The translations under genes were made by a program, and so were the position numbers. Below, in pieces: positions 20,613-37,427 of a stretch of 64,000 nt of DNA. The DNA lies in NCBI RefSeq assembly GCF_030182585.1, contig NZ_JARXOW010000001.1, forward strand, positions 1,240,001 to 1,304,000, read 5' to 3'. This stretch comes from Pedobacter faecalis. Lineage in GTDB: Bacteria; Bacteroidota; Bacteroidia; Sphingobacteriales; Sphingobacteriaceae. Position 1 is the stretch's first letter. Each line of letters starts with the position of its first letter. Below the pieces are notes generated by a model. That model searched no databases. It had not been told where the DNA came from and saw only the letters and a list, made by a program, of their open reading frames with translations.

Positions 20613-20635
20613 GGTAAGACATGATCATTAAACAC

Positions 20636-22147: not shown

Positions 22148-22164
22148 GTAACTAATAAGAAAAA

Positions 22165-22980
22165 ATGAGATCATATATATTAATATTAGGAATAATCATC
22201 GCCCTTGCTTCTTGTAAAAAGGCCGAGGAGATGCGTTTCGATCACACTGCGGGTGTCTATTTCGACTTCCAGTTTGACGGCAGAAAAGATAGCCTTGTAG
22301 AAACTTTTGCCTATAATCCTACCTTAGCCCAAGATACTGTATGGATACCCGTACGGATTTCTGGCGTCCGCACTGGTGCACCCAGAACATTCAGAGCTAG
22401 AATAGAGACAGATTCTACTTCGGCAGTTGAGGGCTTACATTACGAAGCCCTAAAGGATAATTATACTATACCTGCAAATGCCGGGTTTGCTTGGCTCCCC
22501 TTTGTGATTTATAATAAAGATCCGGAATTGGAGAATCGCGCTGTGTCGGCAATTATTAAACTGACCGCATCCGAAGATTTTCACATAGAAAATCCCTACT
22601 GGATTCGAGCAAAGGTTGTATTCTCTGCCAAGCTCGAAAAACCACACTGGTGGGATATGTGGCCTTTGCCACCATACTCCAGAGTCAAACATGAGTTGTT
22701 CATTATCGTAACGGGTGTCACCGAGCTCTCAACTGATGGCTTGGATGCTCCGAAGAACCTTTATATCACGGGCTTGCTAACTACTATGTTAAACAATCCG
22801 TTTAACTGGGTAACTAAGAATGCTGCTAAGGGTTACAGGCTTGAGGAAGTAACCCCTGGAAATGCCGACAGTTATTACTTTTTCAATATCAACAACCCGA
22901 CTAAGAAGACATTGCTCAGAAAGAACCAACAGAACGGGAAATATTATTTCATTGATGAAAACGGAAACGAAGTCATCTAA
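22165..22980 (+). CDS. DUF4843-type surface lipoprotein
   Basis: 271 residues. The lipoprotein signal MRSYILILGIIIALASC is followed by a Calx-beta-like/immunoglobulin-like N-terminal half with AGVYFDFQFDGRKDS and typical DUF4843 spacing (YNPTLAQDTVWIPVRISG; VEGLHYEALKDNYTIPAN). This domain is common in genes directly downstream of SusC/SusD pairs and is thought to be an accessory surface binding protein. The C-terminal part (about 160-271) has no recognised motif. It starts 17 bases after the SusD stop and is in the same operon. Confidence 0.8.
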   Translation: MRSYILILGIIIALASCKKAEEMRFDHTAGVYFDFQFDGRKDSLVETFAYNPTLAQDTVWIPVRISGVRTGAPRTFRARIETDSTSAVEGLHYEALKDNYTIPANAGFAWLPFVIYNKDPELENRAVSAIIKLTASEDFHIENPYWIRAKVVFSAKLEKPHWWDMWPLPPYSRVKHELFIIVTGVTELSTDGLDAPKNLYITGLLTTMLNNPFNWVTKNAAKGYRLEEVTPGNADSYYFFNINNPTKKTLLRKNQQNGKYYFIDENGNEVI

Positions 22981-22994
22981 ACAGTAAAACGAAC

Positions 22995-24407
22995 ATGAGA
23001 AAGTTATTATTTTTTCTTTCGGTAATTTCGGTAATATTTACCGCGTGCCACAAAGATTTGGGTCATTATGAGATCGACATGCCGGAAACACCTGAAGTTG
23101 TTATGGATTCAGTCTTTACAGCAAATGTTGGTGATAGCCTAATCATTACACCTACGATTAAGAGTAAAGATCTTGCGAACATTGAACTGCACTGGCGAAT
23201 TAGTGTTATGGAAGGCACCGATGTCCTTGATACCGGTGCATCCCTTCGTATAATCTACGGATTGCAGGCTAAACGCTATCCTGGGCGGCTTACCGTGTAC
23301 AATAAAGCAAACGGAATGAAATATTTCCACAAGTTCTTTATTGACGGCGCTACGGAATTTGCACGGGGAACAAGCGTGCTTAGTGTTGAAAATGGGATTA
23401 CACAATTCTCCTTTATAAAGCCGGACGGAACGGTTCAGGCTAGACTTTACCGGGCTATACATGGTAAAGACCTTCCTGCAAATCCGATGAACCTGTTCCT
23501 GCTCAGAAACCGGTTTACGGGTGGTACAATGCTCGGATACTGGATCATTACCAAGAACGGTGGGGTCAGGCTTGAACCAAACACTATGGTTGAAGACCCT
23601 AAATATCCGAACACACTTTCTGACAACTTCTTTGTTGCTCCGGATAATATTGAAGTGGGAAGTTTAAAACCTCATCAGCAAGGTATTATGGCCGGCGTAA
23701 TAAACGGAACCTTATACGGAGGTACAACAAACACTTGGGATCAGGCACCTACCTACGGAATGTTCGGTCCTGCAGAAGGTGATTATGAACTAGCGCCTTC
23801 TTTTATTATGACCCAGGCAAATGCAGGAACCTCTTTTGTAGGTTTTGATAAAAACCGTAAACAGTTTCTGAGATTCAACGTGTATAGTGGCCCTACATAT
23901 TTCGGGACACAATATGGAGTTCCTTCGCCAGCAGCGTTCAATCCAATGGCTGTGGACATGGACCTCATCCACATGGAGCAACTAAACAATACAGACTGCT
24001 ATGCCTACTGTAAGTCAGCTGACGGGAAAATCCACGAGCTTCATTTTACAGTCAACTTTACTGGTCCATTCGAATTTAAGCCGTTAGGAAAGAGAGAATT
24101 TGTTAGACAAGATCTCATTACAGCAGATACGAAATGGCAAGGTGCCAGCAATGGCGTTATTTTTATGACCAAAGGAGAAAAAATCTATCGGTATAATCCC
24201 CTGAATCAAGAGGTTCGGGAACTTGTTACAACTTTTGAAAAACCTGTATCAATGATTAAACTATCGGAAGACGAACAAATTCTTAGGGTGGGCATCCAGG
24301 GAGGAATTTACAATCTGGACATTTCTACTGGTAAGTACGGTACTTTAATCGATAAAGTTGAAGGAATTCCAGGAAGCCCGGTGGATATTGTGGTAAGAAC
24401 TAATTAA
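22995..24407 (+). CDS. PKD-like-family surface lipoprotein
   Basis: 470 residues with lipoprotein signal MRKLLFFLSVISVIFTAC. The N-terminal ~110 residues look like a PKD-type beta-sandwich (LGHYEIDMPETPEVVMDS). The rest, with several Gly/aromatic strands such as WQGASNGVIFMTKGEKIYRYN, resembles a beta-propeller. PKD-like lipoproteins of this layout accompany SusC/SusD/DUF4843 sets in Bacteroidota and are presumed surface-exposed binding proteins. It is 14 bases downstream of the DUF4843 gene and 5 bases upstream of the TlpA gene. Confidence 0.78.
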   Translation: MRKLLFFLSVISVIFTACHKDLGHYEIDMPETPEVVMDSVFTANVGDSLIITPTIKSKDLANIELHWRISVMEGTDVLDTGASLRIIYGLQAKRYPGRLTVYNKANGMKYFHKFFIDGATEFARGTSVLSVENGITQFSFIKPDGTVQARLYRAIHGKDLPANPMNLFLLRNRFTGGTMLGYWIITKNGGVRLEPNTMVEDPKYPNTLSDNFFVAPDNIEVGSLKPHQQGIMAGVINGTLYGGTTNTWDQAPTYGMFGPAEGDYELAPSFIMTQANAGTSFVGFDKNRKQFLRFNVYSGPTYFGTQYGVPSPAAFNPMAVDMDLIHMEQLNNTDCYAYCKSADGKIHELHFTVNFTGPFEFKPLGKREFVRQDLITADTKWQGASNGVIFMTKGEKIYRYNPLNQEVRELVTTFEKPVSMIKLSEDEQILRVGIQGGIYNLDISTGKYGTLIDKVEGIPGSPVDIVVRTN

Positions 24408-24412
24408 AATCA

Positions 24413-25546
24413 ATGAAACTGAAAGTTTTAATACTGGCAGCCCTGGCCCCTGTTGCGGCGGCTGCACAAGCGCCCAATTTTACCATCACCGGTAAAATTG
24501 GGAACTTAAACAAACCGGCTAAGATCTATCTGGACTATGGTTCGGACGGGGAAGGTAAGCAGGATTCCTGCGAGCTGGTGAACGGTACGTTTAAGTTTAC
24601 CGGTTATATTGCAAACATCGCCTCCGGGCGTATGACCCTTTCGCGCGAGGGTATCCGCGATAAGGAGGTTTATGGCAGTGGTGGCTTGGGTGATGTGATC
24701 TATCCAAGCTTTGGGAAAGAAAAGATTCATATCACCTCGTCAGATTCACTGTACAACGCCAAATGGACTGGTTCGAAAGTGTACGACGAGTCGGTGGCTT
24801 TTATCAAAGCGGTGGGCCCGCCGGTGATGACCATTCACCACAACGCCAATGTGGCTTTTAGCAGGGCTACGGCTGAGCAGAAAAAGGATACTTTATTCGT
24901 TAAAGTACTTGATAAAAAGGTGAACGAAATGCAGGCTTCCAGGCAGACCAAGATCATTGAATTTGCCCGTAAGAACCCGAAATCTTATTTCGCTATGTAT
25001 AACCTGATGGAAGCAAGCTATGGAACAAAGCCCGGCGTGATCCTGGAGGTCTTTAACAACATGAGCGAAAAGCTCAGGCTTTCGTACGATGGCCAGACCC
25101 TCTACAAATTAATGACAGCCGATAAGGTGACCGCCTTAGGCGCTACTGCGCCGAATTTTACGCAGAAGGATGTAGACGGCAAGCCGGTGTCTTTATCGGA
25201 CTACAGGGGCAAATACGTACTTGTAGAATTCTGGGCGAGCTGGTGTTCTCCTTGTCGCGCGGAGAGCCCTAACCTGATTAAGCAATACGCTGCATATAAG
25301 GACAAGGGATTTGAGATCCTTGGCGTTTCGGTAGATAGCGATAAGGCCAAGTGGATGGATGCGATTAAAAAGGATGGGCTAACCTGGACTCAGGTGTCTG
25401 ACCTGAAAGGGTGGGAAAACGACGTGAGAAAGATATATGGCGTTACACAGGTGCCCGCAAACTTTTTGATAGATCCAACTGGAAAGATCATTGCTGTAAA
25501 CCTATTAACCGAAACATTGAACAGCAAACTTCACGAAATATTTTAA
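24413..25546 (+). CDS. TlpA-type thioredoxin with DUF4369 domain
   Basis: 377 residues with an N-terminal signal (cleaved near AAAAQA). A DUF4369 beta-domain (about 22-120, FTITGKIGNLNKPAKIYLDY) precedes a TlpA/AhpC-like thioredoxin fold. The redox-active WCSPC is near residue 276, in WASWCSPCRAESPN, and the cis-Pro region is VPANFLIDPTGKI. It reduces disulfides or thioethers of envelope proteins. Its place at the end of the SusC/SusD operon suggests that the locus handles a disulfide-containing or redox-sensitive partner, but this is inference. It is the last gene before the AT-rich island. Confidence 0.92.
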   Translation: MKLKVLILAALAPVAAAAQAPNFTITGKIGNLNKPAKIYLDYGSDGEGKQDSCELVNGTFKFTGYIANIASGRMTLSREGIRDKEVYGSGGLGDVIYPSFGKEKIHITSSDSLYNAKWTGSKVYDESVAFIKAVGPPVMTIHHNANVAFSRATAEQKKDTLFVKVLDKKVNEMQASRQTKIIEFARKNPKSYFAMYNLMEASYGTKPGVILEVFNNMSEKLRLSYDGQTLYKLMTADKVTALGATAPNFTQKDVDGKPVSLSDYRGKYVLVEFWASWCSPCRAESPNLIKQYAAYKDKGFEILGVSVDSDKAKWMDAIKKDGLTWTQVSDLKGWENDVRKIYGVTQVPANFLIDPTGKIIAVNLLTETLNSKLHEIF

Positions 25547-25656
25547 TACAAAGAAATATGACGCGCCAGTCAGCAATAAAATAGTTTCTGGTTTGAAACG
25601 AGTTACAGTTCGTCTTCAACCTTGATAGCGCGCATGGAGCGTTTCGAGGTCGTTTC

Positions 25657-25687
25657 AATACCGACAGGAGTTTATCCTGTCGGTATT
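25657..25687. terminator. Perfect 13-bp hairpin at the end of the Sus operon and left edge of the island
   Basis: AATACCGACAGGA (25657-25669) pairs exactly with TCCTGTCGGTATT (25675-25687) around the loop GTTTA. It is 111 bases after the TlpA stop and 100 bases before the end of the convergent peptide gene, so it can act as a bidirectional terminator. The T-rich tail is weak on both sides. The rest of 25547-25786 holds nothing recognisable. Confidence 0.55.
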
Positions 25688-25786
25688 CATTGATATTTAT
25701 ATACTTGGTTTGCGTATCGATCGGAGATATTTCACATCATCCCGAATAACAACCTCTTTAGCAGCAAGTCCAATGATTTTTGACGC

Positions 25787-25990
25787 TTAATCTGGATAGA
25801 ACAAATGATGGAATTCCATAGGTATACACTGAGAATACCTTTCTTCGTAACGGTAGCAAAAGCACGTTTCCGGACAATAACTTAGCTCAGGAGGAAAATT
25901 TGTTCCCCCACACTGACTCCAAGGAAGATCATACGCATTTGTCGAAAAGGTCATGACAAGAAGTGAGAATAAAATTAATAGCTTTTTCAT
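25787..25990 (-). CDS. Small secreted CBM1-like cysteine-rich peptide A
   Basis: 67 residues. Signal peptide 1-19 (cleavage after STNA) leaves a 48-residue mature peptide. It begins YDLPWSQCGG and contains YSQC, the opening and closing motifs of the fungal cellulose-binding module CBM1. Four cysteines (27, 39, 45, 55) have spacings 11-5-9 against the CBM1 pattern 10-5-9, and a fifth Cys sits at 43. Trp-24, three residues before the first Cys, and Tyr-52 occupy cellulose-contact positions. It is the last gene of a minus-strand operon, 12 bases after the thioredoxin/DUF1573 gene. Whether it binds cellulose or only shares the knot fold is open. Confidence 0.75.
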   Translation of the reverse strand: MKKLLILFSLLVMTFSTNAYDLPWSQCGGTNFPPELSYCPETCFCYRYEERYSQCIPMEFHHLFYPD

Positions 25991-26002
25991 AATATAATTT
26001 GT

Positions 26003-27043
26003 TTAATTAACATAAGCAGTAATAGGAAGGGTAATAACCGGCTTGTTTGACGCTGACGTATGAACGAAAATAACCGTTTTGAGCGACCCACTGGCATACG
26101 GCCGAACGGTACCTGCGAAATTTACCTTTTCATGCGGGGCAATTTTCACAATGCTATCAAGTTGAATCTTTGTACAGTCACAAGCTGGATTAATCTTGTA
26201 TACCTTTAATGTGTCAGATGACAAGTTTTGTAGGTCAAAAGAAAACCCATAGTGTTTTCCTCTCCCTATCTTACCGAGATTAATTTCCTTCGGATAATCC
26301 ATTGCGTTAATATGCCTTGAACGTAGGGAGTCATGGATTACAACACTGTCCTTACCTAGATACCGTTTAAGATTGCCGTACAATATCCGATCAGAACCAG
26401 ACGGCATATACTTGACAACAGCGCTCTGCTCAAAATTTAACATACTAGACAGGGTACCATACGTTTTAATATTAAAAGGATAATGCGCTATCTCCAATGA
26501 CTTCAAAATATGTTTATAACCGCTAAGCATTTTACCTTTATCTATATCTAATGCAGCTTTTACGCTTAACGATATAAGATCTTTATATTTGTCAGGGGAT
26601 ATCGGCAAGCCAAACAGTTCTTTAAATCTGTATGGATCATTTTTTATATTGTGCAGCGGCGAAATGTCAAAGTCTGGATTATTAGGGAACCCAAAAGCTA
26701 GTAAAGTGCCATCGTAAGAAAAAAAGTAAGGGTATGGATATGCAGGAGTCTTTAGAATCTGGGCTATCTCTCTGCCCGCGGGAGTACTTAAGTCCGCTTT
26801 AAACGTAAGATATTCACTAACAATAGATTCCGAAGCCTGACGGTTGCTATTCACAAACGACATGAATGCCTTACAGGAACCACACTCACCGTCCGTAACT
26901 AATATAAAAATCTTTTTCTTTTTACGAGCTGCTTCCTCGAATATCTCAGGCAATGTGCCGTCTGAGAATATAATACGATCTTTCCTGCAAGATGCTAATA
27001 ACGTAGTCGACAGGAGTAAATACAGAAACGCTAACCTATTCAT
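26003..27043 (-). CDS. Lipoprotein with thioredoxin-like and DUF1573 domains
   Basis: 346 residues. Lipoprotein signal MNRLAFLYLLLSTTLLASC. Residues about 28-140 form a thioredoxin-like domain with the CGSC pair in TDGECGSCKAF, like the thioredoxin_7/DUF255-type folds. The C-terminal ~95 residues are a DUF1573 immunoglobulin-like domain with NPACDCTKI. The CxxC suggests envelope disulfide exchange, and the cysteine-rich peptide gene only 12 bases downstream is an obvious candidate client. The substrate link is an inference from position. The codon use and AT content match the island and not the flanks. Confidence 0.8.
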   Translation of the reverse strand: MNRLAFLYLLLSTTLLASCRKDRIIFSDGTLPEIFEEAARKKKKIFILVTDGECGSCKAFMSFVNSNRQASESIVSEYLTFKADLSTPAGREIAQILKTPAYPYPYFFSYDGTLLAFGFPNNPDFDISPLHNIKNDPYRFKELFGLPISPDKYKDLISLSVKAALDIDKGKMLSGYKHILKSLEIAHYPFNIKTYGTLSSMLNFEQSAVVKYMPSGSDRILYGNLKRYLGKDSVVIHDSLRSRHINAMDYPKEINLGKIGRGKHYGFSFDLQNLSSDTLKVYKINPACDCTKIQLDSIVKIAPHEKVNFAGTVRPYASGSLKTVIFVHTSASNKPVITLPITAYVN

Positions 27044-27087
27044 AATCCAAATTTAAATATTTACATCACAAATATGTCATACTTATG

Positions 27088-28359
27088 TCACTTATAGGCT
27101 GTCATTAATATCCCTTTCAATTCCTCATTGTTCCCAGAATGCACAACAAAGTCTTTACTGACATCAGTGCTCAATCGAGCTTTATATCGAACAATCTTAT
27201 ATTTAAGACCGACTCCAATATTGGTAAAAGTGATTTTATTGGAGATGTCATCCACCTTTGCCCAACTAATAATCCTCCAGTTGACGCCAAAAGCTGACAA
27301 GTACAGTATTTTATCCTTTTCGAAGTTCTTAGGCAAGTTGAATGATATATCTGTGACTACCGTTCTTTCTCCTGTCACATCTATACTTTTCGGAATATTC
27401 AGAGATAAAGGAATATCACATTCTCTGACACCTAACTTTAATATCTCGCGATAGGGATTGGTGCATAGTCTAACATCAAATTCATTACGATAACACTTTG
27501 CGATTCTAAAATTATATTTCTTGCTATTGAGATCAAAGGCTGAAGATCGGGCATTGTAAGAAAACGTATGGACGTATGTGAGGCCATCACTGTGGGGGGA
27601 GAGGACAGGAATATATTCATATGTTGCAGGAACCCCCACTGACCGAAGCGCGTGTGTATAGATTACACTAATATCCTCGAAATCTCGATGTCTAAAGTGG
27701 CTTTCCAACAATATTTTCTCGGAAGGTTGTGAATAGAAATCTACAAAACTACGCTGAGGCTTCTCTATATTTTCAAAAAACGGCGCTAGATAACTAGTAA
27801 TAGTTTCCGTTGTGTCCGAGCCTTTCTCTAGAATGTCTTTGACTCGAGGGAGGTATCTCCTTCTATAGAAATGTTTGTAATTGTATACATACTCATTATT
27901 TATGTGATCAGGTAAAACGTACCTACAATATTTATCAATTGGGATTTCTGAGAACCAAACGTATTGCCGCCTCAACTTGCGATGAAAATTTATGTTATCG
28001 ATAACTACATTCGCAGAAATACTGTCAATAAAAAAACTTGTATCAGCTTTTAGAGCGAATTTCTCGTTTATTAAAACCGCCTCTAACGAATCCGCAGATA
28101 GTGGCCGATCCAACGGTATCGTGAAAGCGTCTTTGGTTAAGCTATATTTAATAGTATATTGATAGGGTAAAGTGTTAAGTAGGTATTCCGTCATCTCCTT
28201 TGTCTCAAAGTCATGAGATGTGTAGTAGAAATCAACTATCTTCTTCAATTCTGCGTTTCCTGAATTACGCCTTAAAAAGGCTGAATAGTCTCGATGGCCT
28301 GATTTACATGCAGCCATTATTATCGAGATAACTAATAGAAAAAAAAACCTTACCACCAT
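27088..28359 (-). CDS. Transglutaminase-fold lipoprotein, catalytic Cys lost
   Basis: 423 residues with lipoprotein signal ending MAAC. It is a paralog of the gene directly upstream: shared are RYVLP/DYILP, the core ending in GVPATYEYIP (GIPAAYEIIP), NPYREILKLG and IDVTGERT. In the core, DFEDISV aligns with DCEDFAI of the paralog, so Phe replaces the catalytic Cys, while the following His (YVHTF) is retained. It is therefore probably not an active transglutaminase or cysteine protease and may be a binding or partner subunit. The start overlaps the paralog's stop by 10 bases. Confidence 0.72.
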   Translation of the reverse strand: MVVRFFFLLVISIIMAACKSGHRDYSAFLRRNSGNAELKKIVDFYYTSHDFETKEMTEYLLNTLPYQYTIKYSLTKDAFTIPLDRPLSADSLEAVLINEKFALKADTSFFIDSISANVVIDNINFHRKLRRQYVWFSEIPIDKYCRYVLPDHINNEYVYNYKHFYRRRYLPRVKDILEKGSDTTETITSYLAPFFENIEKPQRSFVDFYSQPSEKILLESHFRHRDFEDISVIYTHALRSVGVPATYEYIPVLSPHSDGLTYVHTFSYNARSSAFDLNSKKYNFRIAKCYRNEFDVRLCTNPYREILKLGVRECDIPLSLNIPKSIDVTGERTVVTDISFNLPKNFEKDKILYLSAFGVNWRIISWAKVDDISNKITFTNIGVGLKYKIVRYKARLSTDVSKDFVVHSGNNEELKGILMTAYK

Positions 28360-29807
28360 TTTTGTCCCTCGGCATTCACGGTAAACGGTCGAACTGGATC
28401 ACCCAAGTTTACGTTATCGCTTTCCAATTTGTATAAATTACCAACGTCAATTTTGATCGTCTCAAAATAGGAATTCTTTGCCTTAGATCGCTGAATTTGC
28501 TGCCACCGACCTACCTGCGAATCCCAGCAATACAATATATATGAAGAGTTCTCTTGGATTTGTGTATGACGATCAGAATAATGCAATTTTGCTTTAACCC
28601 TTCTTCCGACAGGCTTAAACCAATCCAACTTGCCATCGACATTAAGTGCAAACGGGGCACCTAAGGTAAGCATACTACCTTTACGATAACCCACTATCTG
28701 ATACAAGATTTTCGCGCCCATTGCACAAAATATAAAGCTATCGGATGTTCTTTCTAACTTTGACCATTCTATAGGCTTCCAATACCCTGCATTATAAACT
28801 GCTATATATGCCACATTCAAAGCATAGTTTCTATTTTCAAAGGCCACATCTGCAACATCTGTTCTTTCCGATGTAACATCGATCCAATCTGAGTGATTGA
28901 AAATTGAAGGAATATTATACTCCTGCTCACCCAGCTTCCGAATTTCGTGAAACGGATTTACTTGACTTCTAAACGTTCGCCGGTACATTTTTGCAATTTG
29001 ATATTTAAAAGGAACTGTATCGCCAAACTGAATTGGATAGAATTTTCCATCTTCAAAAAAAACAGAAGCCTGAACGTGTCCATAGTTAAACTTTCCCCAC
29101 AGGGGAATTATTTCGTATGCGGCGGGGATTCCGACGGCCCGGTGGGCGTAGAGGGATCTAATTGCAAAATCTTCACAGTCGAACGCCATTTTGATCCTTT
29201 GTATTTGATGTACCGTTTGGTTACGAGACGGCCTGTTAACCTGAAGCTTACGATTTGATGCATATCCACCAAAACCCTCTTGTTCCAAAGTTATTGCTTG
29301 GGAGATATCTTTAATACTCATCGTTTCTAGAGAAAAAGTAGCCAAATAAGAGACATATTTATTCTTCATATAAGTCCGCCAGTCGTGATATTTTTCCATG
29401 CCTACTCTATATGGTAAGATATAGTCAAAAAATATATCAAGTGGATAATCTTTGAGTTGAGGAAGAATTGGATTCCTATAAACATCTACTCTTTCTCGAA
29501 CTGTTTCTAAGATATCTCTCTCACCTAAAATTAATGTGTCGTGTATAGTCTCAATATAAGGGTATACTCTTAAACTGTCCAGTAGTTCCTTCGCAGTCAA
29601 CGAACCCCTGTAATTTTCAACTTCATAAGTACGGTCGCGCCCACTCACGTCTAAAAATTTTTTTTCCTGCCCAACGTGGGATCTCATATTGGCGGTTAGA
29701 AATCGCACAGAATCTTCAATAAGCGCAGAATCTGGCTTCGATCGATCTCCACACTGGATGTTTAATATTATAAACAGTACATGGAAATATCTTTTAAGGA
29801 GCTGCAT
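28350..29807 (-). CDS. Transglutaminase-like lipoprotein with intact catalytic triad
   Basis: 485 residues. The N-terminus has a short hydrophobic signal followed by QCGD, a probable lipobox. The transglutaminase core (about 210-300) shows Cys in FDCEDFA, His in YGHVQ and an Asp after FYPIQFGD, in the right order for a Cys-His-Asp triad. The C-terminal part has two beta-rich repeats (WKPIEW; LDWFKPVG). Related Bacteroidota proteins are usually annotated only as transglutaminase-domain proteins. The first gene of the minus-strand operon, it has a -7 box 26 bases upstream. Confidence 0.75.
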   Translation of the reverse strand: MQLLKRYFHVLFIILNIQCGDRSKPDSALIEDSVRFLTANMRSHVGQEKKFLDVSGRDRTYEVENYRGSLTAKELLDSLRVYPYIETIHDTLILGERDILETVRERVDVYRNPILPQLKDYPLDIFFDYILPYRVGMEKYHDWRTYMKNKYVSYLATFSLETMSIKDISQAITLEQEGFGGYASNRKLQVNRPSRNQTVHQIQRIKMAFDCEDFAIRSLYAHRAVGIPAAYEIIPLWGKFNYGHVQASVFFEDGKFYPIQFGDTVPFKYQIAKMYRRTFRSQVNPFHEIRKLGEQEYNIPSIFNHSDWIDVTSERTDVADVAFENRNYALNVAYIAVYNAGYWKPIEWSKLERTSDSFIFCAMGAKILYQIVGYRKGSMLTLGAPFALNVDGKLDWFKPVGRRVKAKLHYSDRHTQIQENSSYILYCWDSQVGRWQQIQRSKAKNSYFETIKIDVGNLYKLESDNVNLGDPVRPFTVNAEGQKWW

Positions 29808-29832
29808 TATCGAGCGTTAATTTCATAGAACT

Positions 29833-29840
29833 CAAATTTA
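29833..29840 (-). promoter_or_regulatory. -7 box for the minus-strand island operon
   Basis: The minus strand reads TAAATTTG, an exact TAnnTTTG match, 26 bases upstream of the ATG of the transglutaminase-like gene. It lies in the 150-base AT-rich divergent gap between the two island operons. No equally good box was found for the plus-strand operon. Confidence 0.45.
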
Positions 29841-29991
29841 TAATTTTTTATTTTGCTTTTATAAATAATTCTCCTTATTATTGATTTAAACAACTAATTA
29901 ACGCATTTATCTCAATTAAATCAACTCACCACCTTTTTAACGCAACTCACTTCTTATGAAATTAATCCAATTATTTATACAAATCAAATTT

Positions 29992-30171
29992 ATGAAAAAA
30001 TCACTATTTTTTTTGCTTCTTTTATTTGCCTGCGTGGCGATGTTTAGCGTAAAGGCGAAAATTTACACTCAGTGCGGGGGAATTGGCTGGGATGGGCCGA
30101 CAATTTGTGAAGATGGAAGCTTGTGTGTTGCACACAACGAATATTATAGCCAATGTTTACCCAATCCATAA
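29992..30171 (+). CDS. Small secreted CBM1 peptide B
   Basis: 59 residues from the ATG at 29992; an ATG at 29956 in frame is possible. A signal peptide (about 1-22, [17 protein letters not shown] core) leaves a ~37-residue mature peptide KIYTQCGG...YYSQCLPNP. The four Cys (28, 39, 45, 55) are spaced exactly 10-5-9 as in the fungal CBM1 of cellobiohydrolases. The aromatic Tyr three residues before the first Cys and the YY pair before the last Cys are the known cellulose-contact positions. CBM1 is known almost only from fungi, usually attached to an enzyme. Here it is a stand-alone bacterial secreted protein, first in the plus-strand operon. Confidence 0.85.
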
Positions 30172-30220
30172 TTTAACATGAAAAAATTCATTTGCCAAAT
30201 AAGTCTTGCACGTTAAGGTT

Positions 30221-30856
30221 ATGATAATAAATAAATTTATAAAAATCACAATTGCAATATGTTGTGTCTGCGTATTATTAGGCTGTGCCAAAGACGAATC
30301 GAATTTATCCGGATTCGAGCCTACGAAACAGTCTGTAGCTACTCTACAAAAAATACAACGGTTACAGGGATTTGAAGAAGCAAGAATCGCTTACGCTTCT
30401 CTTTCCCAAAACGAACGCCATAGTTTATGGATGACAAAACTCCAATTAGCTATTGAAAGTAATAAATACAACTCGAATCAAGTCAAATTAATTAAGGACA
30501 TAATGAAAAGCCTAAAAATAGACTTTTTCCGTAAGGGAGAATATAAAGAGGTTTTCAAGACTGCCATACTACCGGATTGGATTGAGAGAAGTAAATCGAT
30601 TTTTACCAAAGATGAAATTTATAACCTATTGTTCACCCTCGAAAATAGTAACGGTGCCAATTTCTCCATCTCATCAAGTGGAGACGAACAATTACCAGCA
30701 TGTCACTGCGCTAGAGGATCGAATTGGACTTGTTATTTAGGAGGAGGTAATTTTGCTAATTGCTGGGTATTAGTTGCCTATGATTGCGTTACGCAGAGTA
30801 CAGGCTGCGGGGCTTTTATGGATGACGAATGTGATGGAAACTTTTGTACAAATTAA
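30221..30856 (+). CDS. Fulvocin-C-related lipoprotein 1
   Basis: 211 residues from the ATG at 30221, chosen over an upstream TTG. A lipoprotein signal ends at LLGC. A helical middle (about 30-150) precedes a C-terminal 8-cysteine module: CHC, then single Cys, GCG, ECDGN and a last Cys. Fulvocin C, a 45-residue myxobacterial bacteriocin, has the same kind of 8-Cys layout with CSC, GCG and CNGN, as far as I recall it. The ~150-residue precursor-like region makes this a family of larger proteins, so toxicity is not shown. It lies 49 bases after CBM1 peptide B and 7 bases before its paralog. Confidence 0.72.
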   Translation: MIINKFIKITIAICCVCVLLGCAKDESNLSGFEPTKQSVATLQKIQRLQGFEEARIAYASLSQNERHSLWMTKLQLAIESNKYNSNQVKLIKDIMKSLKIDFFRKGEYKEVFKTAILPDWIERSKSIFTKDEIYNLLFTLENSNGANFSISSSGDEQLPACHCARGSNWTCYLGGGNFANCWVLVAYDCVTQSTGCGAFMDDECDGNFCTN

Positions 30857-30863
30857 CTTAACC

Positions 30864-31490
30864 ATGATTCGATTTAAATTATATTTTATCTTTGTTCTAT
30901 CTTGCATCTTTGTATCGTGTAAGGAAAACGAAATTTACGATCCAGAATTAAATAAGCCTTTTCTAACTGGAAAGGCAATTACAAACAAATTAAATACCAT
31001 TACACTTTCTGTGGAACGGAATTTGATCTTCGCGACATTATCTCCTGAAGAAAAATTGAATTTCTGGTTGACTAAATTTAAAAAAATGCAATCTTCAGCC
31101 CTTAACACGGCACAAAAAAGGGCAATAGGTGAACTGATAGACATGTTATCAATACAAGTTTTCACTCCTGGAGACGTAAAAGAAGTATTTCAACAGGTTA
31201 AGATCCCAAATTGGATCGAACGGCAAAAATCCGTTTTCACAGATATACAGATTCACACGCTACTGTTTACGTATGATGATGCGGTTAAAGAGAGTAACCT
31301 AAATTCATCAGGTTCCGAACAGTATGAAGACTGTCACTGCGCTGTAGGAGCAAGGTATACCTGTGTAAGATATACGTTTCCAGGAGTACAATATGGAGAC
31401 TGTCAAAAGCAAGGCGAGTGTCTGCGTGCGCCAAACGGATGTGGGGCACTTATGGACAATGAGTGTGATGGTAATAAGTGTGAATATTAA
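30864..31490 (+). CDS. Fulvocin-C-related lipoprotein 2
   Basis: 208 residues from the ATG at 30864, which opens MIRFKLYFIFVLSCIFVSC; the longer frame to 30774 runs into the upstream gene. A tandem paralog of the previous protein: both share a helical middle with KEVFQQVKIPNWIERQKSVFT (KEVFKTAILPDWIERSKSIFT in the other), then a SGSEQ/SGDEQ linker and the 8-Cys module (CHCA, TC, DC, EC, GCGALMD, ECDGNKC). The cysteine modules differ in loop length and sequence while the framework is kept, as expected if the loops contact different partners. It precedes the DUF1573 gene by 11 bases. Confidence 0.72.
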   Translation: MIRFKLYFIFVLSCIFVSCKENEIYDPELNKPFLTGKAITNKLNTITLSVERNLIFATLSPEEKLNFWLTKFKKMQSSALNTAQKRAIGELIDMLSIQVFTPGDVKEVFQQVKIPNWIERQKSVFTDIQIHTLLFTYDDAVKESNLNSSGSEQYEDCHCAVGARYTCVRYTFPGVQYGDCQKQGECLRAPNGCGALMDNECDGNKCEY

Positions 31491-31501
31491 ACCGTTAACG
31501 C

Positions 31502-31900
31502 ATGACATTGACTCGCTTTTTAATGGTATCATTGATATCCACGACCACTTTACAACTTGCTTGTAAACAAACCAAAGCCGATACTCAGCCAGCGATGGCG
31601 GAAATAAAATCTAAAGAGTATCATTTTAAGACGATAAAATATCCTGATTCGGTAAATGCACATTTCACTCTCCGAAATATTGGTAAAAACGATCTTCTTG
31701 TGAAAGCTGTTGAAACAAGTTGTGGGTGTACGGTTGCTTCAATCACGAAGGATTCCATACCTGCTAAAGATTCCGCCATAGTTGCGGTGACTTTCAAGCC
31801 AGACAGCAACCAGGTTGGTTACATTAGAAAATCGGTGGTGTTGAAATTAAACACTGAAGACATTTTCCATGTTGTTTACATCTCTGGTAACGTTGATTAA
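31502..31900 (+). CDS. Small DUF1573 lipoprotein
   Basis: 132 residues. A lipoprotein signal ends at LQLAC. The rest is one DUF1573 immunoglobulin-like domain with FTLRNIGKNDLLVKAVETSCGCT and VAVTFKPDSNQVGYIRKSV. The CGC motif is the usual DUF1573 feature. The domain is related in layout to the C-terminal part of the lipoprotein at 26003-27043, so each arm of the island carries one DUF1573 domain. Function is unknown; an envelope chaperone or docking role for the cysteine-rich proteins is only an inference. Its stop overlaps the start of the Wzy-like gene by 32 bases. Confidence 0.85.
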   Translation: MTLTRFLMVSLISTTTLQLACKQTKADTQPAMAEIKSKEYHFKTIKYPDSVNAHFTLRNIGKNDLLVKAVETSCGCTVASITKDSIPAKDSAIVAVTFKPDSNQVGYIRKSVVLKLNTEDIFHVVYISGNVD

Positions 31901-33686
31901 GGCAAACAGTTTTTGGTTTCAATCATGGCACGCCAAATATGCAATGAGCATATTTGGCGTTTTATTATCTTCAGTTATTTTTTCAACGTCACTACCAAAT
32001 GGTTTTGTATTCACGAAAGAAATTTACTTAGCCATTTTGATAGGTTTTACGTTGTTTGCATATATAAACACTACACAAACATATCATTTTAACCAGATCG
32101 ACATCTTAGTCATATTGTTGTTCTCTTTTTCAATTATTAAGGGATTTTTTACAACTTCGACAACTGGATTTCATCTATGCTTAAGATTGTGCTTTCTTCT
32201 TTTCTATATTTCTATTGCCTGCTCTGACAAAAAAAAGAAAATTTCTAATGTAGTATATTACGTCATTGCGATATTCTTTATTATCCAAGTGGCAATCGGT
32301 GTTATACAAAATTTTACATTTAATAGTGATGCTCTGAAAGTAAAGGGTTTTTTTTTCAATTCGGGACCTTTTATGATATACACATCTGCATTATCTTTCT
32401 TTGTCTATCCGATACTTTTTTCCCATAGAGAAAGGCTGCGCATTAGAATCAGAATGGCCCTGGTTTTAGCGGTATTCATTCTGCTAGCGGCACAATCTGA
32501 CTCAAGAACATCTTGGTTGGGTCTGCTAGTTGTAATAGTTCTGGTTTTAGCCACCTATCCACCATTAGTAAAAAAGCTTAGAAATAAATTATGCAAACGC
32601 CTATTTCTTCTCACTGCTATTTTGTTGTTATTCGGAATTTGTCTGCTTTTATATAACTATAAAATTCAGTCATCAATAGGCCGTTTGTTTATTTGGAAAA
32701 ACTCGTGGGAAGTTATTAAACAAAATATGTTATTAGGTGTCGGGCATGGTAATTTTGATGTATCTTATTTTGAAGAACAGTCTAGCCATTTTATGAAATC
32801 GATAACCTTTTCAGAAGTTGCTGGAGATGTAAGATTTGCATTTTGCGATTATTTGCAGATCATGGCTGAGGAAGGCATTGTGGGTTTCATTTTATTTTTG
32901 TGTATCATAATAGTGATCCTAAAACGCTGGCAATCTGTTAATCGAGTGGTTCAAAGCTCTCGTTTATTAGGCTTCGAAAACGCACTTTTCTGCTCGTTCT
33001 TATTTCTAGTAATTTCATCGGCTTCTTCATACCCCCTTCAGGTGATAGAAATCAACGTATTATTTTGGGTTTTGGTAGCTTTGATTTCACGAAACGCTAA
33101 ATGTCCATATTGCTTTGAGTTCAAGACTAATTCTGTGGGCGTGTGGTGTGTTTATCCACTCTTCATAACTTCCATACTTTTGTCTTTGGCCAGGGTCGAT
33201 GCTTTTCTGTATGTACGTTCGTTAACACGCAGTCCGTCCCAGAGTCACGAACTTGCCGAGAGCAAAGTAAGCATTTTAAGTTCGATGAAAACATATGTCT
33301 CCGATGACCCTAATTTCGCTTTATTATTAGCAAATATGTATATCGAACGACGAAGGTATCGCGACGCAATAGGTGTATTGATGAAATGCCTTTCTCACCA
33401 TCCTGAAAAAGAGTGCTTTTATAAATTAGCCGAAATATATGAGATGCTTCAGGAATATCAAAAATCTGAAAAAACATACTACAAGGTAGTGCATGCGTAT
33501 CCACACCTCTTGTATCCTAAATATTTGCTCGCGATGTTTTATTATAGGACGGGACAGACAAATCAATGGCAAGTCCTTGGACGCGAAATTCTCTATTTCA
33601 AGCCCAAGGTTTATTCCGATGTCATTATTAATATAAAGTCAGATATTGGACAAAAAATGGCAACTTCGAACTCCGGGCGCCCTTAA
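31869..33686 (+). CDS. Wzy/O-antigen-ligase-like membrane protein with C-terminal TPR
   Basis: 605 residues. About ten to twelve hydrophobic helices fill residues 10-440. The conserved Wzy_C-type segment includes SDSRTSWLGLLVVI (about 205) and a periplasmic loop with GRLFIWKNSWEVIKQNMLLGVGHGNF (Arg and His as in O-antigen ligases/PglL). The C-terminal ~150 residues are TPR helices (LLANMYIERRRYRDAIGVLMKCL; YKLAEIYEMLQEYQKSEKTYYKVV). Such proteins join lipid-linked glycans to lipid A, to other glycans or to proteins. No glycosyltransferase lies nearby, and the neighbours are secreted peptides, so protein O-glycosylation of these is a testable idea. The 176 bases after it hold nothing recognisable. 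Confidence 0.8.
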   Translation: MLFTSLVTLIKANSFWFQSWHAKYAMSIFGVLLSSVIFSTSLPNGFVFTKEIYLAILIGFTLFAYINTTQTYHFNQIDILVILLFSFSIIKGFFTTSTTGFHLCLRLCFLLFYISIACSDKKKKISNVVYYVIAIFFIIQVAIGVIQNFTFNSDALKVKGFFFNSGPFMIYTSALSFFVYPILFSHRERLRIRIRMALVLAVFILLAAQSDSRTSWLGLLVVIVLVLATYPPLVKKLRNKLCKRLFLLTAILLLFGICLLLYNYKIQSSIGRLFIWKNSWEVIKQNMLLGVGHGNFDVSYFEEQSSHFMKSITFSEVAGDVRFAFCDYLQIMAEEGIVGFILFLCIIIVILKRWQSVNRVVQSSRLLGFENALFCSFLFLVISSASSYPLQVIEINVLFWVLVALISRNAKCPYCFEFKTNSVGVWCVYPLFITSILLSLARVDAFLYVRSLTRSPSQSHELAESKVSILSSMKTYVSDDPNFALLLANMYIERRRYRDAIGVLMKCLSHHPEKECFYKLAEIYEMLQEYQKSEKTYYKVVHAYPHLLYPKYLLAMFYYRTGQTNQWQVLGREILYFKPKVYSDVIINIKSDIGQKMATSNSGRP

Positions 33687-33862
33687 TTTTCTATCTAACC
33701 GTCACTTTCGTCAATTGGGCAGTTCAGCCGTAGAGTGATTGATACAACCAGTGTACATTTTCAATAACACAACGACAAGCCTATAGGAGTTTGGTGCTTA
33801 CATACCTACTTCGATCGAATGCCCATGATAACGTTGATATATCTCGTTATGATCAAAAGTTG

Positions 33863-34627
33863 CTAATTCCAGATGCCGTTGGCCGCAGTAAGGATGGTAG
33901 GCATACCGTCGGTTACGATAATGGTATGCTCGTGTTGGGCTACAAAGCCGCCCTTATTGCCTAGAAGGGTCCAGCCGTCCGACTGCTGCTCGGCAATAGT
34001 AGATGCGGTAGAGATGAAGGTTTCTACGGCTACGACGCTGTTTTTGCGGAAACGTCCGGTTACGTAGCGGTCGTAATAATTGAGGATATCGTGCGGCTCT
34101 TCATGCAGACTACGGCCCACCCCATGTCCGGCCAGATTCTTAATAACCGTATAACCCCGCTTGCGGGCCTCGGTTTCAATCAGCTTGCCTATATCAGCAA
34201 TTTTAACACCACCCTTGATCTGGGAGATGGCTTTCTGAAGTATTGTTTTAGAGGCCTCCACCAGGGGCAGGTAATTGTTGATGTCCTCGCCCAATACGAA
34301 TGATCCGCCATTGTCCGACCAGAATCCGTTAAGTTCGGCGGAGACATCTATGTTGATGAGATCGCCCTCCCGGAGTATTTTATCAGCTACGGGAATGCCA
34401 TGAGCTACCACGTTATTTACACTGATGCAGGTCCAGCCCGGGAAATCGTAGGTTAGTCGCGGTGCCGACTTAGCGCCAAGCTTGTTGAGTATTTCGCCGC
34501 CAAAGTCGTCCAATTCCTTAGTACTCATGCCGGGCGCTGCGTGTTCACGCATCAGTTTCAGCGTATGCGCAACGGCTTCGCTGATCTCCTGCATACCCTT
34601 CAGTTCCTCTTCTGTTGATATAGACAT
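33863..34627 (-). CDS. map: Type I methionine aminopeptidase
   Basis: 254 residues, usual length. It removes the initiator Met in the cytosol using two metal ions. Metal ligands are visible in NIDVSAELNGFWSDNGGSF (Asp pair), in the GHGVGRSLHEEPHDI segment (His), and in VAVETFIST and QHEHTIIV (Glu residues). GHG VGR is the standard signature. It is divergent from the cbb3 cluster, with a CRP/FNR-like operator in the shared promoter region and a clear -7 box 14-21 bases upstream of its start. Confidence 0.95.
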   Translation of the reverse strand: MSISTEEELKGMQEISEAVAHTLKLMREHAAPGMSTKELDDFGGEILNKLGAKSAPRLTYDFPGWTCISVNNVVAHGIPVADKILREGDLINIDVSAELNGFWSDNGGSFVLGEDINNYLPLVEASKTILQKAISQIKGGVKIADIGKLIETEARKRGYTVIKNLAGHGVGRSLHEEPHDILNYYDRYVTGRFRKNSVVAVETFISTASTIAEQQSDGWTLLGNKGGFVAQHEHTIIVTDGMPTILTAANGIWN

Positions 34628-34640
34628 ATGATATTTTTTG

Positions 34641-34648
34641 CAAAGATA
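34641..34648 (-). promoter_or_regulatory. -7 promoter box of map
   Basis: The minus strand reads TATCTTTG, an exact TAnnTTTG match, 14 bases upstream of the map ATG. The operator at 34672-34687 is centred about 42 bases upstream of the start site this predicts. Confidence 0.5.
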
Positions 34649-34671
34649 CGATTTGCGTATTGAAGCAAATT

Positions 34672-34687
34672 TGTGATTCCCGTCACA
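34672..34687. promoter_or_regulatory. CRP/FNR-type operator TGTGA-N6-TCACA
   Basis: A perfect inverted repeat TGTGA TTCCCG TCACA between map and ccoI. Its centre is about 62 bases upstream of the start site predicted from CATTTTTG at 34731-34738 (one mismatch to TAnnTTTG) before ccoI. It shares the TGA-N6-TCA core with three other sites in the cbb3 cluster and is a candidate binding site for the REC-CRP regulator. Confidence 0.55.
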
Positions 34688-34757
34688 TTTTTATGGAATG
34701 CATGTCATTTAGCCCCTTAGGCTTTCTCCGCATTTTTGATGCAGATATTACCAGGGT

Positions 34758-37172
34758 ATGGACAACAGTATAACGACCTCTGTTGAGGCAACAAAAACGG
34801 CAGCACAATGTTTTCATTGCGGCGAAACGCTGAGCGCAAAAACTTACCGGCTGGCCGACAAAACCTTTTGCTGTGAAGGATGCAGGATGGTGTACGAAAT
34901 ATTATCAGCCAACAACCTGGGCAACTATTATGCATATAACGACCGGCCCGGCTCAACGCGGCTTAAACCCGTAGCGAACTTTGACTATCTGGACGTAGAG
35001 CAGGTGATTTCGGAACTGGTCGACTACCGCGATGAGCGGATCAGCATTATTACGCTTTACATTCCGGCTATACACTGCAGTTCCTGCATCTGGTTGCTCG
35101 AACACCTGTACCAGCTTGACGGAGGCATTGTAAAGTCGAGAATAGATTTCCTCAAGAAGACGGTCAGTATCACCTTCCGGAACGAAAACACTTCCTTGAA
35201 AAAGGTGGTAGAAATGCTGGCGACTATTGGCTATGAACCGCTGATCAGTCTGCAGGACATGGTAAAGGAAAAGCAGGCCGACCGCTCTGAACGGCGGTTG
35301 GTGACTAAAATAGCTGTGGCCGGGTTTTGCTTTGGTAACGTGATGCTGCTGAGCTTTCCGGATTACTTTGGGATGGCTGCGTTTGAGCGGGAGTATGCGA
35401 ACTTCTTTGGCTGGCTTAACCTGGGTTTTTCATTGCCGGTCGTGTTTTACAGCGGGCGCGACTACTTCAGTTCGGCATGGACCAACCTCAGAGCCAAACG
35501 GCTTAACCTTGATTTCCCGCTTGCGCTGGGTATCGCGGTAATGTTTATCCGTTCCATCTACGAGATTGTACTGCAAACCGGGGCCGGCTTTGTGGATACG
35601 CTATGTGGACTGGTCTTCTTCCTCCTGGTGGGAAAATGGATGCAGCAAAGGACTTTCCATCATATCTCCTTTGAACGGGACTACCGCTCCTATTTTCCGG
35701 TTGCCGTTACGGCCTTAAACGAAGGTGTAGCGGTATCGAAACCTTTGGCAGCGTTGAAGACAGGCGACCGCATTATGGTGCGAAGCATGGAGATCATTCC
35801 TGCTGATGCGATGCTGCTGAAAGGCGACGCGCAGGTGGATTTCAGTTTTGTAACAGGTGAATCAGAACCGGTAAGTAAAGTGCTCGGTGAAGTGATTTAC
35901 GCAGGCGGAAGACAGTTATCGGGTTCAATCGAACTGGAGGTGATCAAGCCGGTATCTCAAAGCTACCTAACCCAGCTCTGGAATAACGATGCTTTTGTGA
36001 AGACACGTGAGGGCATCCGGACATTCAGCGATACGGCAAGCAAATATTTTAGTGTGGTACTCCTCCTTGTTGCCTTTGGTTCCGCAGGCTTCTGGATATA
36101 TTTTGGGGAGCCGGACAAGGCGCTTGCTGCATTTACGGCAGTGCTTATTATTGCCTGCCCTTGTGCGCTAGCGCTGAGTTCGCCCTTCACACTGGCAGCA
36201 GCGATCAGCATATTCGACAAGAACGGATTCTACCTCAAAAACACGGCTGTGGTAGAGGAACTGGCACGGATAGACACATTTGTATTCGACAAGACCGGTA
36301 CAATTACCAGTCCCGATGCGGCTTCGCTGTCGTTCAGCGGACAGCTAAGCCCCTTGCAGCAGCAGATGGTGTGCGACCTGGCCCGTAACTCCGGCCACCC
36401 CCTTAGCAGGGAACTTACACGCCATTTAAATAAGGAGGCATTATATAATGCGGATCATTATACGGAAAAAATCGGCAGAGGTATCAGTGGAACGATCAAT
36501 GGAAATCATGTAAAATTGGGAAGTTCTGCATTCCTTGGTCTTCCACTGAAAAACTCTCCGGCTGGCAGCAGCATCCATGTGATGATTAATGATGAATATT
36601 TGGGCCAGTTTACCATCAGACAGCAGTGGCGCCGTGGATTCAAAAGTCTGGTGCAGAACCTGGGCCGCTGGGCAGACCTCCATTTGTTGTCGGGCGACAA
36701 AAGCCATGAAAAAAGCAGTCTGGTGCCTTTCTTTGAAAGCGCATCTAAACTACACTTCGATCAGAGTCCGCAAGACAAACTGGATTACATCGCTGCCTTG
36801 CAGGACAAAGGAAAAAAGGTGCTGATGTTTGGCGATGGACTAAACGATTCGGGTGCGCTGAAACAGAGTGATCTGGGGATAGCGGTGACCGACAACATCA
36901 ACAACTTCAGTCCCGGTTGCGACGCAGTGCTCGACGGGGCTTCTTTTGAAAAAATACCTGCCTTTGTACAGCAGGCGAAAGACGCGGTCAAGGTGATCCA
37001 CATGTCGTTCGCCATTTCGTTGGCCTATAATGTCGCAGGACTTTCGTTCGCAGTGCAGGGTATGCTCTCTCCGCTGATTGCGGCTATCCTGATGCCTGTG
37101 AGCACGGTAACGATTATCATATTTACTACGCTGTCTGTAAGAGCCTTTGCACGCAAAAACGCTTTGTTATGA
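34758..37172 (+). CDS. ccoI: Copper-translocating P-type ATPase for cbb3 oxidase assembly (CcoI/FixI)
   Basis: 804 residues. It pumps copper across the inner membrane for the CuB site of cbb3 oxidase. The N-terminus has a Cys-rich metal-binding region (CFHCGETL and CCEGC, about 20-47) and a heavy-metal-associated domain with HCSSC (about 113). The CPC ion-path motif is in IIACPCALALSSPF (about residue 467), the phosphorylation site DKTGT at 511-515, and the hinge GDGLNDSGAL near residue 700. The first gene of the cbb3 operon, its last 4 bases overlap ccoS. The Cys-rich N-terminus is typical for CcoI and not for CopA export pumps. Confidence 0.94.
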   Translation: MDNSITTSVEATKTAAQCFHCGETLSAKTYRLADKTFCCEGCRMVYEILSANNLGNYYAYNDRPGSTRLKPVANFDYLDVEQVISELVDYRDERISIITLYIPAIHCSSCIWLLEHLYQLDGGIVKSRIDFLKKTVSITFRNENTSLKKVVEMLATIGYEPLISLQDMVKEKQADRSERRLVTKIAVAGFCFGNVMLLSFPDYFGMAAFEREYANFFGWLNLGFSLPVVFYSGRDYFSSAWTNLRAKRLNLDFPLALGIAVMFIRSIYEIVLQTGAGFVDTLCGLVFFLLVGKWMQQRTFHHISFERDYRSYFPVAVTALNEGVAVSKPLAALKTGDRIMVRSMEIIPADAMLLKGDAQVDFSFVTGESEPVSKVLGEVIYAGGRQLSGSIELEVIKPVSQSYLTQLWNNDAFVKTREGIRTFSDTASKYFSVVLLLVAFGSAGFWIYFGEPDKALAAFTAVLIIACPCALALSSPFTLAAAISIFDKNGFYLKNTAVVEELARIDTFVFDKTGTITSPDAASLSFSGQLSPLQQQMVCDLARNSGHPLSRELTRHLNKEALYNADHYTEKIGRGISGTINGNHVKLGSSAFLGLPLKNSPAGSSIHVMINDEYLGQFTIRQQWRRGFKSLVQNLGRWADLHLLSGDKSHEKSSLVPFFESASKLHFDQSPQDKLDYIAALQDKGKKVLMFGDGLNDSGALKQSDLGIAVTDNINNFSPGCDAVLDGASFEKIPAFVQQAKDAVKVIHMSFAISLAYNVAGLSFAVQGMLSPLIAAILMPVSTVTIIIFTTLSVRAFARKNALL

Positions 37173-37354
37173 GTATTCTCTACTTCCTCATCGGCTGCAG
37201 CATACTGCTGGCGCTGATTTTTCTGATCGCTTTTTTCTGGGCCAGCAAAACTGGTCAGCACGACGATACGTACACCCCTGCCCTGCGCATGCTGTTTGAC
37301 GACGAACCGGCCGATAAGCCGGTTCCGGAAAAAGGTGATGAAGATCACGTTTAA
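37169..37354 (+). CDS. ccoS: cbb3-type oxidase assembly protein CcoS
   Basis: 61 residues: one transmembrane helix (about 3-25, MSILYFLIGCSILLALIFLI) and a short acidic tail with TPALRMLFDDE. CcoS is needed for placing heme b and copper into CcoN in other bacteria. It overlaps ccoI by 4 bases (ATGA). A perfect GTGAT-N4-ATCAC operator lies inside its 3' end at 37335-37348. Confidence 0.9.
   Translation: MSILYFLIGCSILLALIFLIAFFWASKTGQHDDTYTPALRMLFDDEPADKPVPEKGDEDHV
37335..37348. promoter_or_regulatory. FNR/CRP-type operator upstream of ccoNO
   Basis: GTGAT GAAG ATCAC is a perfect inverted repeat with the TGA-N6-TCA core, in the 3' end of ccoS and 80 bases upstream of the ccoNO start. A -7-like TAATTTTA is at 37393-37400, which puts the operator centre about 62 bases upstream of the predicted start, the class I position of CRP/FNR activators. 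Confidence 0.55.
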
Positions 37355-37427
37355 CACAAATACGAGTCACGCAGCAGGCACACCAGCCATCCTAATTTTA
37401 CCATCACAAACCATTCAGAATTTTAAC

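Follow-up and report, generated by a model that had tools for sequence, protein, structure and literature searches.

CBM1-type domains beside a thioredoxin-like DUF1573 lipoprotein gene in Pedobacter faecalis and other Bacteroidota

The window analysed here – a stretch of 64,000 nucleotides of the bacterium Pedobacter faecalis (contig NZ_JARXOW010000001.1, positions 1,240,001 to 1,304,000) – encodes a short peptide that consists of little more than a family 1 carbohydrate-binding module (CBM1). An earlier note on this DNA had described a short bacterial peptide of this kind with its own signal peptide, and the description was borne out: a 59-codon open reading frame on the chromosome, at 29992..30171 on the forward strand, encodes P1, a CBM1 mini-protein of 59 residues with a signal-like start, a mature part of about 37 residues and four cysteines. 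An alternative start 36 nt upstream in the same frame would give 71 residues. Some 4 kb away, at 25787..25990 on the reverse strand, lies the gene of a second and diverged CBM1-like peptide, P2 (67 residues, with a signal-like start and five cysteines after the signal region). It is found 12 nt downstream of a lipoprotein gene (26003..27043, reverse strand) whose product, with a lipobox read by eye, combines a thioredoxin-like region (CGSC; PF13899) with DUF1573 (PF07610); we refer to this Trx-DUF1573 gene as the partner of CBM1. P2, the partner and the island that contains them are features beyond those of the earlier note. Signal-peptide cuts were set by rule of thumb, and for P1 we infer the cleavage site from the -3/-1 rule.

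The membership of P1 in CBM1 is firm. Evidence came firstly from the family profile: P1 matches PF00734 at 49.6 bits (E-value 3.7e-13) against a cut-off of 20.6, with residues 25-52 covering positions 2-29 of the 29 in the profile, a score too high for a chance match. It came secondly from the arrangement of key residues. The cysteines of mature P1 are spaced 10-5-9, as in the module of Trichoderma reesei cellobiohydrolase I (CBHI) and as the earlier note had claimed; equally, the aromatic residues that it had placed at three cellulose-contact positions are there, with tyrosine at each of the aligned sites (three before the first cysteine, four and three before the last). These are the positions at which CBM1 makes the contact, in part according to excerpts of PMC7410926. 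Finally, the predicted structure points the same way. The CBM1 structures nearest to P1 by sequence are the T. reesei CBHI modules (5x39 and 1cbh), and an AlphaFold2 (AF2) model of P1, with a predicted local distance difference test (pLDDT) score of 94-96 over residues 21-59, aligned in Foldseek with 1cbh at a template-modelling (TM) score of 0.94, normalised to 1cbh, and a root-mean-square deviation of 0.6 Å. A significant profile match and a predicted CBM1 fold are thus what the two checks proposed in the earlier note returned. P1 is a genuine CBM1 whose setting is new: it resembles the fungal module of T. reesei CBHI (Cel7A) in profile, cysteine spacing, contact aromatics and predicted fold, and differs in being bacterial, in standing alone as a 59-residue pre-peptide with neither linker nor catalytic domain, and in belonging to a set paired with Trx-DUF1573.

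CBM1 is described as almost exclusively fungal in PMC3490864 and in excerpts of PMC7410926, and excerpts of two papers state that it is eukaryotic only, or not bacterial. According to PMC5962083, 2523 of 2702 CBM1 sequences are fungal, the rest being assigned to other named eukaryotes. The view that CBM1 is known almost only from fungi, and normally fused to an enzyme, needs correction: oomycetes and algae also have CBM1 (excerpts of PMC3532174 and PMC5962083), and in oomycetes just two genes that join CBM1 to a glycosyl hydrolase have been found according to the same excerpts. Judged from these, oomycete CBEL-type proteins and other non-enzymatic CBM1 proteins of eukaryotes, those of Emiliania huxleyi included, are like P1 in carrying CBM1 without an enzyme; they differ in being eukaryotic and in having no bacterial cassette, and CBEL is a multi-module cell-wall glycoprotein (two CBM1 and two PAN/Apple modules). 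Two of the E. huxleyi modules bound both cellulose and chitin (PMC5962083). Among the matches listed in a search of the open-access literature there was no account of bacterial CBM1 or of its pairing with Trx-DUF1573.

A central piece of evidence is the linkage between CBM1 and the partner. Full-length Trx-DUF1573 genes were present as seven copies in six Bacteroidota genomes from three genera: the window's own (G000), G476, Niastella caeni, G1021, G1106 and G1133, the last with two copies. All seven frames are open, all seven proteins retain CxxC, and in every case the neighbour on the same strand encodes either CBM1 (six copies, above the Pfam cut-off) or a CBM1-like peptide (one copy, the neighbour being P2). 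The two genes are separated by 11-112 nt, with the lipoprotein gene upstream in six of the seven. For two of the copies, those of the window and N. caeni, CBM1 itself was the route of discovery; the other five were reached through a fulvocin-related family or the Trx-DUF1573 profile, so that the independent count of linkage is five of five. Loci with partial matches only – mostly to DUF1573, a few to the thioredoxin region – served as controls, and the CBM1 motif was found in none of the 55 (these being the non-full-length matches from two family draws for which a locus was drawn). Some match at E<=1e-10 occurs in 249 of 301 genomes in the one draw and 235 of 294 in the other, among the matches listed mostly to the DUF1573 part and seldom to thioredoxin; only full-length matches were counted.

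N. caeni (Chitinophagaceae) was the one relative returned when genomes were scanned with a profile of the P1 and P2 alignment. Its genes run in the order of a 60-residue CBM1 peptide, a 356-residue lipoprotein homologue and a 305-residue protein that ends in another CBM1; the homologue is 33% identical to the lipoprotein of the window over 345 residues. The window's family appears to differ from that of N. caeni, the two family draws having no genome in common among the matches listed. A search with the fulvocin-related family, found in 4 of 121 genomes, led to G476, a member of another genus of the window's family, and there too a CBM1 peptide adjoins the lipoprotein. That several bacteria have a CBM1-type module next to one and the same kind of thioredoxin-like gene points to a distinctly bacterial system and not to a chance acquisition from a fungus. 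As for the proposal in the earlier note that P1 is a stand-alone bacterial CBM1, this holds for the peptide. P1 is not an isolated oddity: a survey of Bacteroidota, which the note had called for, showed a small set of CBM1 or CBM1-like domains linked to the Trx-DUF1573 gene in six genomes.

The set comprises nine distinct domains: P1, P2, two from N. caeni, one each from G476, G1021 and G1106, and two from G1133. Eight score above the PF00734 cut-off (34.9-52.3 bits), P2 being without a match. Five are stand-alone peptides and four lie within proteins of 156, 158, 294 and 305 residues, in which no other Pfam domain scored above its cut-off. An aromatic residue is present three positions before the first cysteine and three before the last in all nine; four before the last it is present in seven, with asparagine in G1021 and arginine in P2. 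Elsewhere such domains are scarce. Matches to PF00734 above the cut-off were obtained in one of 59 relatives (the window's genome included), in one of 395 genomes across the phylum (that of the window; three at E<=0.01) and in five of 394 genomes drawn from the family of N. caeni, where the whole profile was covered in N. caeni only. The other four in that draw were partial matches of 19 residues in open frames of 19-38 residues and were treated as probable chance matches; matches below the cut-off in G138, G380 and three further genomes of the N. caeni draw were set aside.

In G1106 (locus L088, 10428-10904 and 13149-13535) there is a pair of small paralogous proteins that have their C-terminal part in common; in one of them, of 158 residues, CBM1 is placed between that part and the signal peptide, and in the other it is missing. 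The CBM1-less paralogue starts 2.7 kb away and resembles the 158-residue protein in its C-terminal part and in the type of its signal peptide, for which the DNA of the two is 90% identical along 107 nt, including 47 that precede the gene. Because these paralogues differ by the presence of CBM1, the module was probably acquired or lost in one piece. The pair is also a natural comparison of one protein with and without CBM1. In G1133 (locus L096, 11912-14208) an IstB_IS21 gene and an integrase-core gene (rve, just under the cut-off) lie between the two Trx-DUF1573/CBM1 pairs. A DUF5128 propeller adjoins one CBM1 locus, as at NVEALA loci, and this, together with small size, secretion and richness in cysteine, is the basis of what we take to be a likeness to NVEALA-type peptides of Bacteroidota; a literature search on that name gave nothing.

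P2 merits separate comment. It carries LPWSQCGG...ERYSQCIP, and as a query against its own genome it returned P1 (E = 1.1e-4, 37% identity), yet against Pfam there was no match at E<=1, PF00734 included. In Foldseek its model is matched best by CBM1 modules, though the E-values, 0.03-0.04, are weak (7yhf at 0.033; 1cbh with a TM score of 0.85 by target); none reached E<=0.001, and CBM1 rows stood in the AF2 input alignment. We therefore describe P2 as CBM1-like and do not call it CBM1.

In the window the pair is embedded in a cassette. The gene after P1 starts 49 nt past its stop on the same strand, which makes an operon of P1 and the downstream genes plausible. That gene and the next encode fulvocin-C-related lipoproteins with cysteine-rich C-termini (30221..30856 and 30864..31490, both forward; NF033852 at 89.4 and 83.1 bits, cut-off 35), a name that reflects annotation, any bacteriocin activity being putative. 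They are like P1 in that the genes adjoin and that a secreted protein with a cysteine-rich end is the common theme, and unlike it in size (about 210 residues) and in that P1 has no match to NF033852. There follow a DUF1573 protein (31502..31900, forward; PF07610, 77.3 bits) and a Wzy_C/O-antigen-ligase-like protein with a TPR tail (31869..33686, forward; PF04932 at 53.9 bits, TPR_6 at 26.8 against 26.3), the true start of which may lie downstream of 31869. On the reverse strand are two transglutaminase-like genes. TGL-A (28350..29807) has cysteine and histidine at the apparent catalytic positions and was identified by alignment, its match to PF01841 falling below the cut-off (19.4 bits against 23, E = 0.0013); TGL-B (27088..28359) has no Pfam match and aligns with TGL-A, and in it both residues are replaced.

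The same content – the pair, TGL-A, TGL-B, one or two fulvocin-C-related proteins (NF033852 above the cut-off), DUF1573 and Wzy_C – is found in the window, G476 and G1021, the latter two representing two genera of one family; TPR passes the cut-off in the window and in G476 but does not do so in G1021. The genes differ among the three in order and strand. The fulvocin gene of G476 is a weak tblastn match to that of the window and its DUF1573 gene gives none; both were placed by family. Cysteine and histidine are retained in all three TGL-A and lost in all three TGL-B (F/L/L, L/E/R), and by this retention TGL-A may work like a transglutaminase. That an apparently active and an apparently inactive member (27088-29807 in the window) stand together in G476 and G1021 as well is an observation in its own right. 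The stretches from N. caeni, G1106 and G1133 have the pair with no other cassette homologue at E<=1e-3, save a DUF1573 cross-match to the lipoprotein of G1133. Conversely, the CBM1 motif is missing from stretches of 15.5-16 kb with the fulvocin-related loci of G470 and G455, so the fulvocin part exists without CBM1.

The cassette occupies an island of low G+C content (GC) at 25547..33861, between a TlpA/AhpC-TSA-type gene (24413-25546, forward) and a peptidase M24 gene (33863-34627, reverse). GC amounts to 37.2% over 25432-33861, where the remainder of the window has 48.0%. The island is absent from the one same-species genome compared, G1128, whose E1-E2 ATPase protein is 99% identical to that encoded at 34758-37172. 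No full-length Trx-DUF1573 was found at E<=1e-30 in this genome, which is 95% complete; in DNA it matches the window over 24396-25431 at 90% and over 33862-38389, to the end of the compared stretch, at 98%, with about 205 bp where the window has 8.4 kb. The last 115 nt or so of the TlpA-type gene are more diverged and can still be aligned in G1128, to about 25530, which places the island proper at about 25547-33861 (8.3 kb). The neighbourhood seems prone to exchange, and exchange there is wider than one insertion, since the SusC/SusD locus at 17668-24396 also has no nucleotide match to G1128 though both its flanks match. The rarity of the full-length partner in the genus makes gain of the island by the window's strain likelier than loss, and the origin of the cassette is probably lateral. 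Fungal contamination was considered and ruled out: the island lies inside a bacterial contig, G1128 matches both sides of it and other genomes carry the same pair. As to vehicles and functions, P1 gave no tblastn match at E<=0.1 among 72,556 plasmid records and nothing at E<=0.1 among PHROGs phage families; PADLOC gave no match at E<=0.01 to an anti-phage defence system for the seven of nine cassette proteins scanned; the window has no tRNA gene; and a repeat scan of 25300-34000 revealed no convincing flanking repeats.

What, then, might the pair do? The explanation that we favour, with confidence a little better than even, is a secreted, disulfide-bonded and polysaccharide-binding CBM1 mini-protein with a dedicated thiol-redox partner. 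To judge by their N-termini the pre-peptides would be exported through Sec, after which CBM1 would fold around two disulfides that the Trx-like/DUF1573 lipoprotein, as a dedicated partner, would make or keep; the sevenfold linkage and the conserved CxxC point to such a role. The conserved contact residues and the fold suggest that a flat aromatic face would bind crystalline polysaccharide – binding of cellulose or chitin is the straightforward function to predict for P1 – and that CBM1 would dock the mini-protein, or a larger protein to which it is fused, on wall material of plants, algae, fungi or oomycetes. The window has the module within a probably laterally acquired cassette, whose further products are the cysteine-rich fulvocin-C-related lipoproteins and the transglutaminase-like and Wzy-like proteins, and these last may – the weakest step – be the machinery that processes or modifies the fulvocin-related lipoproteins.

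Several results weigh against this explanation. The thioredoxin region of the window's own lipoprotein scores 21.3 bits with PF13899 (Thioredoxin_7), below the cut-off of 27, as compared with 34.5 bits, above the cut-off, for PF07610; the N. caeni homologue reaches 29.6 bits with Thioredoxin_7, above the cut-off. In the window the neighbour of the partner is P2, which fails the CBM1 profile, and P1 heads the divergent, putative operon. No glycoside hydrolase is present among the nine island open reading frames scanned, leaving no enzyme for CBM1 to target. And the full-length partner is rare: the lipoprotein profile recovered it from at least 4 of the 301 genomes drawn from the window's family, at least 4 of 145 of the genus (five copies), at least 1 of the 294 drawn from the family of N. 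caeni (N. caeni itself, the seed of that draw) and at least 1 of 277 taken from the whole phylum (that of the window), these being lower bounds from overlapping samples in which, for many genomes, the candidates scored were part of a first-look set.

The fulvocin-related proteins hint at possible antagonism. In a bolder proposal CBM1 would be the interchangeable homing head of a mobile Bacteroidota system, in which mini-proteins and cysteine-rich, effector-like proteins, matured by the Trx-DUF1573 partner, would be delivered to neighbours walled with cellulose or chitin, for example fungi, oomycetes or algae. We think this unlikely; were it true, eukaryotes and bacteria with wall surfaces in common would have exchanged CBM1 as a module. 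Doubtful, too, is the suggestion that the CBM1 scaffold, instead of binding carbohydrate, acts as a small knot with an antimicrobial or other effector function in a bacteriocin-type cluster of cysteine-rich peptides. It would account for the position of P1 directly upstream of two fulvocin-C-related lipoprotein genes and for the location of CBM1 behind other cysteine-containing regions of larger proteins in N. caeni and G1133; moreover, spider-toxin knots figure among the structural likenesses of the P1 model. These rank below the CBM1 rows, and P1, with four cysteines after its signal region, is not an inhibitor knot with six cysteines and three disulfides.

In our estimate it is also very unlikely that the peptides are signals outside the cell, or factors for self-adhesion, that the cassette senses. 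The small size of the peptides would suit such a role, as would the single-domain LytTR gene that follows CBM1 in G476 and N. caeni; it is in these two only that the gene is found, the loci of the window, G1021, G1106 and G1133 having no LytTR homologue at E<=1e-3, and no receptor or histidine kinase occurs among the nine island open reading frames scanned.

The relatives of P1 bear on a further alternative. A protein search gave 26, comprising two from the window, one from N. caeni, ten with fungal or oomycete names and 13 unplaced (P0004, P0007, P0009, P0010, P0012, P0014, P0016, P0018, P0019, P0020, P0021, P0025 and P0026); such a search can miss relatives, as the proteins of G476, G1021, G1106 and G1133 were absent from its results. 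P1 is at best 61% identical (median 55%) to eukaryotic or unplaced domains and at best 62% (median 47%) to bacterial ones, and in a FastTree phylogeny of 30 domains (nine bacterial, 21 eukaryotic or unplaced), its topology read without support values, the bacterial domains do not group. That a fungus or oomycete recently passed the module to this one strain, where it would have no settled role, would fit this near-equal similarity, the ungrouped tree and a strain-variable island of low GC, but is most improbable given that CBM1 or CBM1-like domains stand beside the same partner in six genomes of three genera, which argues for a bacterial history whatever the first source; the module is too short to settle the direction of transfer. 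Eight bacterial CBM1 above the cut-off and one CBM1-like domain, spread over six genomes that all carry the partner gene, raise the question of where CBM1 arose. On our preferred explanation, that of polysaccharide-binding mini-proteins with a thiol-redox partner, nature would supply in them binders of minimal size, with about 37 residues; the testable disulfide-folding pair and the cassette are further subjects.

Three of the unplaced proteins (P0007, P0009 and P0010) are similar stand-alone CBM1 peptides of 55-66 residues with signal-like starts. The peptide of N. caeni has the UniRef label 'CBM1 domain-containing protein', which we take as automatic annotation; the single domain is thus visible in databases. 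Matches to a Bacteroidota-type promoter pattern number four in the window against 2.3 expected, with none at P1. Two 13-pair hairpins lie in the island: one at 25657-25687, between the TlpA-type gene and P2, and one at 31930-31960, just past the DUF1573 gene and within the beginning of the Wzy-like gene as listed. The latter hairpin has a T-rich tail and is possibly an attenuator or else a sign that the Wzy-like gene truly starts later.
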